Positions 20,095 to 23,493 of a stretch of DNA of 64,000 nucleotides are shown here, piece after piece. The DNA comes from Arthrobacter sp. ERGS1:01 (GTDB lineage: Bacteria; Actinomycetota; Actinomycetes; Actinomycetales; Micrococcaceae): the NCBI RefSeq assembly GCF_001281315.1, contig NZ_CP012479.1:3410001-3474000 (forward strand), read 5' to 3'. A program made the translations under genes and the position numbers. The notes under the pieces were generated by a model. The model was not told where the DNA came from. It made no database searches and worked only from the letters and a program-made list of their open reading frames with translations. The first letter of the stretch is position 1, and each line of letters begins with the position of its first letter.

Positions 20095-21867
20095 CTAGAG
20101 GAAGCGGCGCAGCAGGATCAGCGCGAAGCCGGCCAGGAACACCAGAAGCGCTCCCGTGTAGACCGGCCAGATGCCGCCACCGGTGTAGGCCAGCTGGGCG
20201 GGTGCGGCGGCGTCCATGGCCACCGTGCCCGAGCTCATGGCCTGCAGGTTCCCGGCGGGTGACATCTGGGTGACACCCTGGGGAGCCCACTGCGTGATCT
20301 GGATGATCGGCGTCACAGGGGTTGCGGGAACCGACGGGGTCGTCGGGGTCCACGGCGTACCGGGGGTGCCAGGCGTGCCCGGCGTACCCGGCGTACCCGG
20401 CGTACCCGGCGTGCCCGGCGTGCCCGGCGTACCCGGCGTACCCGGCGTACCCGGCGTACCCGGCGTGCCCGGCGTACCCGGCGTACCCGGCGTGCCCGGC
20501 GTGCCCGGCGTGCCCGGTGTACCCGGCGTACCCGGCGTACCCGGTGTACCCGGCGTACCCGGCGTGCCGGGGGTCACCACATTGGTGACATCAGAGCCAA
20601 CGGAAACCGCATTTCCCAGGATTCCCACGGCGTTGCCGGAGATGTTGATCGGGACAGTGATGGGTGCGGCGATCTGTACGTTGCCGAGCACGTTGCCCAG
20701 CAGTCCGCCAAGGAGGCCGCCGCCGTTGGAGTGGCCGGCATTCTGGCTTCCTGCGGTCTGGCTGACGCCCGGAACAACCGTGGTGTTCGTGGCGTGGGAA
20801 CCACTGCTCACCGCGTTGCCCAAAACCCCAACAGCGTTGCCGGACACATTCACCGGAACCGTGACGGGGGCCGCCACCTGGACATTGCCCAGGACATTGC
20901 CAACCACGCCGCCGAGGATTCCGCCGCCGTGGGACTCACCTGAGTTCTGCCCACCTGTGTTCTGCCCACCGGCGGTCTGGCTTCCGGCGTCCTGCTTCAC
21001 GGGCGGGGCAACCGTGGTGTTCGTGGCGTGGGAACCACTGCTGACCGCGTTGCCCAAAACCCCAACGGCATTACCGGAAACATTTACCGGAACCGTGATG
21101 GGGGCCGCCACCTGGACATTGCCCAGGACGTTGCCGACCACACCACCCAGGAGGCCGTCACCGTGCGATGAGCCGGCATTCTGGCTTCCGGCGGTCTGCC
21201 CACCGGTGCTGGGGTTTCCCGCGGGCTGGCTTGCCGTATTCTGCCCACCGGCGGTCTGCCCACCGGCGGTCTGCCCACCGGCGGTCTGGCTTCCGGCGTC
21301 CTGCTTCACGGGCGGGGCAACAGTGGTGTTGCTTGCCTGGGAACCGCTGCTGACAGCGTTGCCCAAGACGCCCACGGCATTGCCGGACAAGTTCACCGGA
21401 ACCGTGACGGGCACGGCCACCTGGACATTGCCCAAGACGTTCCCGACCACGCCGCCCAGCAGGCCGTCACCGTGCGAAGAACCGGCGGTCTGCCCACCGG
21501 CGTCCTGCTTGACGGCCGGCGCAACCGTGGTGTTTGAGGCCTTCGAACCGCTGCTCACGGCATTGCCCAGGACGCCCACGGCATTGCCGGAGACATTCAC
21601 CGGAACCGTGACGGGCACGGCCACCTGGACATTGCCCAGGACGTTCCCGACCACGCCGCCCAACAGGCCGCCGCCGTCCGAGGAGTTCGAATTTGTTTGG
21701 TGGCCCAGTCCCTGGACCACGGAGGAAACAGTGCTCTGCACCGCGTGGGCGCCACCGGATGAACCGGTGACTGGCTGTTCTGCAGCGTTGGCTGCACCTG
21801 CGCCGAGGGCCAGAAGCCCTCCGGCAAAGACCGCTGCACAGAGCGATCGACGAATGACGACATGCAT
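20095..21867 (-). CDS. LAYTG-anchored surface protein with five chaplin-like repeats and a (TPG)n collagen-like stalk
   Basis: A 590-residue secreted protein. The ATG at 21867 has AGGAG nine bases upstream; a TTG three codons earlier is the only alternative. A signal peptide ends near GAANAA. Five ~50-residue repeats follow, each built on [20 protein letters not shown], then [15 protein letters not shown]. This is the beta-strand pattern of the chaplin domain of Streptomyces, but without its two cysteines. The repeats are joined by Gln/Asn/Gly linkers (TAGGQTAGG). Next is a run of about 24 TPG triplets, like a collagen stalk. The C-terminus has LAYTG at 559-563, a hydrophobic stretch and RRFL. 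Chaplins form amyloid surface layers; whether these cysteine-free copies do is an inference. No nearby partner gene is evident. Confidence 0.8.
20354..20578. repeat. About 25 tandem 9-bp units encoding Thr-Pro-Gly
   Basis: Uninterrupted 9-base periodicity with consensus GGCGTRCCC (plus strand). The edge units are degenerate, and internal units differ mainly at R (A or G). It encodes the collagen-like stalk of the chaplin-like protein. Such an array is prone to slipped-strand length change in steps of three residues, and to assembly error. Confidence 0.93.
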
Positions 21868-21968
21868 AATGTTCAACTCCTGAAAAGTCTTTTTGACCTG
21901 GTTTGCGGTTGCAAATGCCAGGAAATACCGGGGGCCGTTTTCCCTTGGACGGGGCGGCCGGCGGTCAA

Positions 21969-23323
21969 CTAGTCAGGGCTCGAGCCCGGGTCCGAGGGCA
22001 TGGAGGCAGGCAGGGCCCAGTCGACGTCCCACAACGGCGCACCGTGCGCTGCCATGCGCAAAGACAAGGGGAAGAATTCATCGGCGGCCGCGAATCCGGC
22101 TGACCCGCCCGCTCCGCCGGAAGACATGCTTGCTGAGGCCGCCGTCGCCGCGCTCGTGATGACGGCGGGAGGACAGGGACCCACGGCGGAATCGCCCGTG
22201 GCTGCGGCACAGGCGGCGCTCGCACCGCCGGAGCCCGGGAGCGTCATGGCCGCGAATACCGGGTGTCCTGTTGCGGGTGCCGAGGACTCCTGCAGGAGCC
22301 TGGCGGCAAAGAGCGCCGACGCCGAATTCGCTTCGGCCTGGGAGTCTGACTGGGAGAAGTTGTACAGGGTCCGGGCGGCGGCCGCCGAGGCGCCGCTTGC
22401 CTTGTGCCCCGAAGCGACTGCCTGCTGCGGGTCCGCTACTGAACTGCCGTCATGGGCTCCCGGGACGGGCGCACCGGGCACGACTACGCCGGGAGCTGTG
22501 GTTCCCGTCGCCGGGGGTTCCGAATGGTTTCCGCCCGGTGTTCCAGGGGTCACCGGCGTGCCCGGGGTTCCGGGGCCGGTCGGGGTGCCCGGATTTCCCG
22601 GGTTTGACGGCGTGCCGGGTGTTGACGGGGTTCCTGGGTCGGTAGGGGTGCCCGGCGTTCCGGGGTTTGACGGATTTCCCGGATTTCCGGGGTTGCCGGG
22701 ATTTCCGGGGTTGCCCGGCAGGACGCCGTCGACCACTCCGCCAACGACTCCACCGACCACGCCGTCAACGACTCCGGTGACGCCGTCGGTCACGCCGCCG
22801 ACGACGGGATTGAGGGTGTCGGTGACCGGGGCGAGGACCGCGGTGACGGGTTTGGTGACCTGATCCACGGCACCCAGGACGGGCGTCGTCACGGAAGTTA
22901 CCGTGGTGAGTACGGGGCCACCACCTGGTTGGTGATGTTCTGCACGGGTGTTGAGACAGCCCCAACAACCGGGCCAACGACGGGAAGGGAGGCTACCGAG
23001 CCTTCGACCTTGTCCGTCACGTTTGTCACGGGTGTGGTGATCTTGGAAACCGTGTCGCTTCCCACCAGGTCCTTGACCACGGGAACCTGGGACACCGTGG
23101 TGTCGACCAGCTTGACGACCGGGTTGAGCAGGCCCGAAATGAGGCCCTTTCCGCCGGAAGCGGCCGGGGAGGATGAGGAAGAGTTGGGGTTCGACGAGGC
23201 GGCAAAGGCACCCGTCGATCCCAGAACCAGGAAGGCTGCGGCGATCAAGGCGGCTCCGAGGGAGAGCCGGACGGCACGGAGAATGGGCGTGGTGCCCAAC
23301 GACGAATTTTCGTCATTGTCCAC
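21969..23323 (-). pseudogene. Frameshifted gene for a secreted collagen-like (GNP/GTP repeat) protein
   Basis: Two reading frames make one protein if a single base is restored near 22905. The upstream piece (start near 23323, ends at a stop at 22898) has a signal peptide (AALIAAAFLVLGSTGAFAAS) and valine/threonine-rich repeats such as VSKITTPVTNVTDKV, ending QVVAPYSPR. The downstream piece (22892-21969) resumes the same style: [19 protein letters not shown]. It then has GNPGNPG/GTPGTP collagen-like repeats and an Ala/Ser-rich domain with two cysteines, and ends without a sorting signal. A GCCCCGTAC context reads through if it had one more base in the C-run. Either a true broken gene or a sequence error. 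The downstream frame has no ribosome-binding site of its own. Confidence 0.7.
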
Positions 23324-23493
23324 TGCCTTCACCCCACCCAAGGACTGCGTGTGACGGGCGCGCTTGAGGAACGCCAGTCTGAGACCGCCATGCGCCCAAA
23401 ACAGGCGCAATGACCTTTTTCCAGCGTACGTCCGCTCCGCGAGAACCGCCAGAGTCTGATTAAATTTTCTGCAATATTTCGGACGGGGCACGG

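Follow-up and report, generated by a model that had tools for sequence, protein, structure and literature searches.

A chaplin-family gene lies on the minus strand of the window, the 64,000-nucleotide stretch of DNA from a soil Arthrobacter analyzed here, with a second gene for a secreted protein directly upstream and a conserved RNA element between the two (Table 1). Counted from its ATG, the open reading frame encodes a protein in which a signal peptide is followed by five chaplin-type repeats, a stalk of TPG triplets, an LAYTG motif, a hydrophobic stretch and the C-terminal residues RRFL. This layout largely agrees with an earlier sequence-only reading of the same DNA, which had announced about 24 TPG triplets (exactly 24 were counted) and an LAYTG anchor motif. 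Its five repeats were likewise found, while its repeat size of about 50 residues is approximate only: the conserved core spans ~37 residues and recurs at a spacing of 68-103 residues. The DNA encoding the signal peptide (21755-21864, minus strand) is unusually well conserved, with 82% mean column identity over 12 genomes, and a stable consensus hairpin is predicted for it.

Table 1. Features of the chaplin locus, with positions in the window.
Feature	Positions	Strand	Remarks
Chaplin-family surface protein gene	20095..21867	(-)	590 aa; PF03777 33.6 bits
Signal peptide	21778..21867	(-)	Residues ~1-30, by eye; strongly conserved within genus
Repeat 1 core	21529..21639	(-)	Residues 77-113
Repeat 2 core	21325..21435	(-)	Residues 145-181
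Repeat 3 core	21016..21126	(-)	Residues 248-284
Repeat 4 core	20782..20892	(-)	Residues 326-362
Repeat 5 core	20578..20688	(-)	Residues 394-430
(TPG)24 stalk	20359..20574	(-)	Residues 432-503; TPA, TPV and VDP triplets in orthologues
Class-E-type sorting signal	20098..20193	(-)	LAYTG (residues 559-563), hydrophobic stretch, RRFL
Conserved three-way-junction RNA	21862..21974	(-)	Partner's last codon and stop codon to chaplin start
Partner gene, 3' piece	21969..22892	(-)	Pro-rich tract, 2 Cys, C-terminal LPASMP..PGSSPD
Partner gene, 5' piece (ORF tool)	22898..23491	(-)	Signal peptide, amphipathic repeats

The relationship to chaplins claimed by the sequence-only reading is borne out by profile searches. 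The Pfam ChpA-C model (PF03777) matches the whole protein in five stretches, well enough to pass its cut-off of 21 bits, whereas the single repeats score 12.9-15.1 bits in a genome scan and stay below it. Among 119 homologues, drawn from the 8000 candidates sharing most words with the chaplin protein, 117 carry PF03777, and many are annotated as chaplin or as chaplin family protein. When the five repeats alone were made into a profile, every one of the 119 homologues matched at E<=1e-3, and none of 119 locally shuffled sequences did; as the homologues had been collected with this very protein, the shuffles are a control for composition only. Among single repeats with cysteine, the best match has an E-value of 4e-8 for a nominal database of one million. 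The protein has five chaplin domains, where a long chaplin has at least two, together with a C-terminal LAXTG signal and a class E sortase encoded in the genome. The gene product is a long chaplin of a known family, in that family's common cysteine-free form.

A protein search finds one chaplin locus at the protein level in this genome. No secreted short chaplin was found by protein search and PF03777 scan, although a divergent one could escape them because the true repeats here also score under the PF03777 cut-off. Three further matches below that cut-off occur in the genome (L001, L003 and L007), the first of them inside an ORF that we take to be trpE. Two such matches in relatives (G013:C131 and G015:C34) were rejected as further chaplins, as they fall in genes that presumably are fliM-like; a third lies at G013:C72:328500-330000. 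A search of a plasmid collection gave no match. The search of genome contigs with the bare protein gave no relative, and a search with an alignment (A1) was used instead. In the genome scan, the nearest relatives bear the name Arthrobacter (A. psychrochitiniphilus GP3, A. cryoconiti Cr6-08, and Arthrobacter sp. HY1533 and H35-D1), and members of this genus are non-filamentous rod-cocci, in keeping with the non-filamentous host that had been assumed. For A. chlorophenolicus, this growth form is stated in the accessible part of a 2013 review (PMC4255298). One record labelled Sporosarcina beigongshangi (NZ_JADHDY010000002.1, L063) holds Arthrobacter-genus sequence and is likely mislabelled or contaminated.

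The single cysteine of the protein is residue 10, inside the signal peptide, and the mature protein contains none. All five repeats carry serine before the central GN, the site of the first chaplin cysteine. The two conserved cysteines of each chaplin domain, typical of PF03777 without defining it, are thus missing here, and the repeats are cysteine-free, as claimed. They are not distinctive for it: 372 of the 665 repeats in the 119 homologues lack cysteine, with 38 proteins cysteine-free in all repeats, 74 mixed and 7 bearing cysteine in every repeat. Outside the genus, among the matches listed, 37 of 44 loci (mostly from Micrococcales, a few of them from one genome) are wholly cysteine-free, as are 275 of their 292 repeats, a count biased towards the cysteine-free form because one of the three search patterns demanded Ser or Gly before GN. 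A chaplin of the same genus (G017, L051:7740-9941) combines two cysteine-free repeats with eight that have cysteine. Experimental precedent comes from Streptomyces coelicolor, where, in the available text of PMC3079736, ChpE, which has no cysteine, is nevertheless reported to assemble into amyloid fibrils and to show surface activity; ChpE shares the cysteine-free chaplin domain and differs in being one secreted domain with no anchor or stalk. The same text reports that reduced chaplins still make fibrils, and that cysteine-less ChpH impairs normal aerial growth and alters the fibrils. The C-terminal domain of ChpB also lacks cysteines according to the accessible part of PMC13251363, and the 2013 review, in its accessible part, notes a chaplin-like gene in the non-sporulating Arthrobacter chlorophenolicus (PMC4255298). 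As far as these texts go, the literature already covers chaplin domains without cysteine as well as a chaplin-like gene of Arthrobacter.

Among repeats 1-4, dN is 0.014-0.067 and dS 0.27-0.91; comparisons with repeat 5 give higher values (dN 0.17-0.25; dS 1.0-3.0, with saturation in one pair). Compared with eight other genomes, median dN is 0.10-0.18 and median dS 0.64-1.56, saturated pairs being excluded from dS. Judged by these rates, the protein sequence of the repeats is under purifying selection. Within the strand of each repeat, hydrophobic and other residues alternate, and in each of the five the hydrophobic moment is greatest at 180 degrees (shuffle P 0-0.0025). For a two-repeat stretch, AlphaFold2 places strands in each repeat at a low confidence (mean pLDDT 47.4) that is too weak for a fold search, and for this reason no structural claim is made. 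A survey of repeat number, suggested in the sequence-only reading, shows that it varies: two to six in eight relatives read in one piece and ten in G017.

On the sorting signal, the NCBIfam LAVTG model scores 15.7 bits, under its cut-off of 27. The form AQLAYTG occurs in nine of nine genus proteins compared, that of the window included; three genus members outside this comparison have NQLAYTG (G019), LAATG (G017) and LASTG (G004). At the 44 listed loci outside the genus, the C-terminal motif is LAxTG in 29, LPxTG in 8 and neither in 7, some of which are cut by a contig end. The genome encodes four sortases: a class E enzyme (L008; NF033747, 245.6 bits against a cut-off of 160), a class C enzyme (262.2 bits against 160), a third that narrowly misses the class F threshold (164.7 against 166), and a fourth that matches class F weakly (73.7). 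According to the accessible part of PMC5148588, LAXTG is the motif used by class E sortases, and it is by such enzymes that ChpA-C are anchored in S. coelicolor. The sortase signal claimed earlier is supported by the motif, the hydrophobic stretch and RRFL, and by the presence of the class E sortase L008, which probably anchors the chaplin to the cell wall.

The partner gene adjoins the chaplin gene on its upstream side and encodes a secreted protein whose true start probably lies near 23332; no Pfam or NCBIfam model matches this protein above a cut-off. By protein search, the chaplin is present in 11 of 23 genomes of the genus and the partner in 12, namely those 11 and G004. Counting a divergent protein in G004, chaplin and partner co-occur or are both absent in these 23 genomes. 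The G004 protein, found at the same place (L060:5726-9418), is 1196 residues long, with a similar signal peptide, a C-terminal LASTG and many VPTLPVDPAG-type repeats; three degenerate chaplin-like stretches can be made out in it by eye and are missed by the five-repeat profile. In 11 of the 12 genomes, 98-101 bases separate partner and chaplin. G017 has 88, and there the pair sits on a different contig from the PucR and TetR genes, yet together. In 8 of the 11 genomes without the pair, matches to the flanking genes (a PucR regulator on one side and, on the other, a pyridine nucleotide-disulphide oxidoreductase or, in G010, the TetR gene) lie no more than 100 bases apart; in the remaining three, they are 1.2-3.4 kb apart with no partner or chaplin match inside. 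A promoter and terminator scan gave nothing above chance.

Eighteen partner homologues were found, and all six that have an organism name belong to Arthrobacter. Hydropathy autocorrelation over the middle part of 18 related proteins (three of them without the anchor motif and read from residue 41) is positive at lags 3, 4, 7, 11, 14, 15 and 18 (0.14-0.34) and negative at lags 2, 5, 6, 9 and 13, with a shuffle deviation near 0.02; prolines are frequently 11 residues apart. The periodicity of this middle part is that of an amphipathic helix and resembles the 11-residue repeats of apolipoproteins. For a partner homologue, the AlphaFold2 prediction (pLDDT 41.2) lends no support to a stable fold and was too weak to be used in a fold search. 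In the window, a change of frame near 22,890-22,930 divides the partner in two, whereas it is a single open frame in all 11 other genomes. The pair may not work in this strain because of this frameshift, although the break could be a sequencing error rather than real.

The RNA element between the genes aligns over 12 genomes and folds as a three-way junction. Its outer helix begins at the partner's last codon, includes the stop codon and ends directly before the AGGAG of the chaplin gene. When the 12 genomes are aligned by sequence only, 93.2% of cells pair and two-sided changes occur in 10 of 20 pairs, as against 3 of 21 and 0 of 2 pairs in neighbouring coding controls; sliding the opposite strand of the helices lowers pairing to 29-42%. 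For these 12 related sequences of one genus, and with statistics that ignore phylogeny, the covariation score is 0.277 compared with 0.176 +/- 0.018 in shuffles, none of 500 being as high. Counting further pair types gives a weaker contrast (17 versus 14.1 in shuffles, 13 of 500 as high).

The signal-peptide control stretch has a more stable consensus fold than the RNA element (-27.2 versus -10.6 kcal/mol), though little covariation, with a covariation term of +0.27 versus -0.87. Seven of the 12 genomes have the constrained junction as their minimum-energy fold. Imposing it costs 1.4-13.5 kcal/mol in the five others, most of all in G017, where the unconstrained minimum is likewise a three-way junction, but in shifted columns. 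Mean z is -2.8 for the minimum energy and -2.0 for the constrained junction, with -1.7 in this window, and the constrained junction is no better than shuffles in G013 (+0.2), G004 (-0.4) and G017 (-0.2). An RNA model finds one copy in each of the 12 genomes, the same copies that trained it, and none in the other 11. Run with stricter filters on 197 genomes of the family, it matched four, all in the genus, and among 33 loci from beyond the genus (L052 plus 32 of the 44) it gave two weak matches only (E 0.45 and 0.65). Between 19900 and 24300, Rfam gives five matches, none of which attains its gathering score or lies in 21862-21974. The junction probably tunes or couples translation of the chaplin, and coupling to partner translation is the simplest guess because the junction takes in the stop codon of the partner and lies directly against the chaplin ribosome-binding site.

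Taken together, the family match, the architecture, the sortase gene, the gene pairing and the RNA covariation are best explained by a wall-anchored chaplin with a hydrophobic or adhesive role, accompanied by an amphipathic partner and subject to translational control through the RNA; this explanation is considered probable. The chaplin would be exported, cut at LAYTG and joined to the wall by the class E sortase, and the stalk would carry the five amphipathic strands outward from the wall. There, the valine faces of the repeats may make the cell surface hydrophobic, and strands of neighbouring molecules or cells may associate by beta association, leading to attachment or cell-cell adhesion. 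The different surface coat or adhesin suggested by the sequence-only reading would be the likeliest function. In the genus Arthrobacter, the chaplin would work together with the secreted amphipathic protein encoded directly upstream, which may stand in for short chaplins, and the three-way-junction RNA would tune chaplin translation or couple it to that of the partner. A Streptomyces-like assembly or a secreted film is doubtful because no short chaplin was found in this genome.

A more specific version of this explanation, tentative and itself rather doubtful, would make the locus a compact two-gene surface module carried by part of the genus. A wall-anchored beta-type chaplin and a secreted alpha-type partner with 11-residue repeats would act together at an interface, and the RNA would set their ratio, in that a ribosome ending the partner would open the junction and allow the chaplin to be translated.

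It is unlikely that the protein is instead an adhesin with a narrow target, its repeats being ordinary domains, folded or flexible, that recognize a single ligand, such as a polysaccharide or a partner cell, without forming a general hydrophobic layer. A stalk with a wall anchor is a common adhesin layout, and the variable repeat number would suit such a role, as would the attachment in which some chaplins act, according to the accessible part of PMC4255298; however, the repeats vary little in sequence, their strands are amphipathic, no variable binding surface is apparent in them, and AlphaFold2 gives no confident fold. Somewhat less probable again is a module in decay in this strain, its partner broken and its chaplin a leftover. 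The broken partner frame and the loss of one of the seven outer-helix pairs of the RNA would fit decay, but the chaplin frame is intact, its repeats show low dN relative to dS, and 19 of 20 RNA pairs are kept; the possible sequencing error in the partner also weakens this explanation.

The stalk bears on one further alternative. The Pfam Collagen model (PF01391) scores 56.6 bits on the TPG tract, and collagen chains in the structure databank also match it. Nevertheless, among nine comparable orthologous stalks (G019, split by a masked run, and the divergent G004 were left out), none has kept a glycine in each third position, and runs of G-X-Y do not exceed one triplet in any of the nine, with the Pro-rich triplets TPA, TPV and VDP in place of TPG. 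The conserved feature is frequent proline, mostly triplet-spaced, which makes an extended stalk likelier than a triple helix. The collagen-like spacer proposed by the sequence-only reading is rejected despite the 24 triplets of this protein, and a collagen-like fibrous protein in which (TPG)24 would trimerise as a triple helix with the repeats as head groups is highly improbable.

Chaplins have been studied for the part they play in raising aerial hyphae. That an anchored form without cysteine occurs in a rod-coccus genus, and that no short chaplin was found beside it, suggests an older or separate use, for example in attachment to surfaces. In its accessible part, the 2013 review likewise considers that attachment may predate aerial growth as a chaplin role (PMC4255298). 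The partner and the RNA element, together with this chaplin, form a small module in which the attachment idea and the control of the ratio of anchored to secreted amphiphile could be tested. What looks new is this setting of secreted partner and RNA element rather than the chaplin, although neither has a name by which the literature could be searched. A literature search, most subscription journals lying outside it, found no paper on the function of an Arthrobacter chaplin.

Among known systems, ChpA-C of Streptomyces coelicolor share with the present protein the signal peptide, the chaplin domains and a C-terminal LAXTG-type signal for a class E sortase. The present protein differs in having five domains rather than two, no cysteine and a Pro-rich triplet stalk, and its genome differs in that no short chaplin was found and the genus is non-filamentous. 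Chaplin-family proteins of other Micrococcales (Microbacterium, Agrococcus, Leifsonia and Pseudarthrobacter) also have several mostly cysteine-free repeats and LAxTG or LPxTG near the C-terminus. Unlike the Arthrobacter locus, however, the 33 loci searched outside the genus did not convincingly show the RNA element, and the named partner homologues (6 of the 18 found) are from Arthrobacter only. CwpA and CwpB of Actinoplanes missouriensis are comparable in being hydrophobic proteins of the cell surface, anchored by SrtE, in which disordered regions and beta clusters occur, but have no chaplin domains according to their authors, in the accessible part of that report (PMC13251363).
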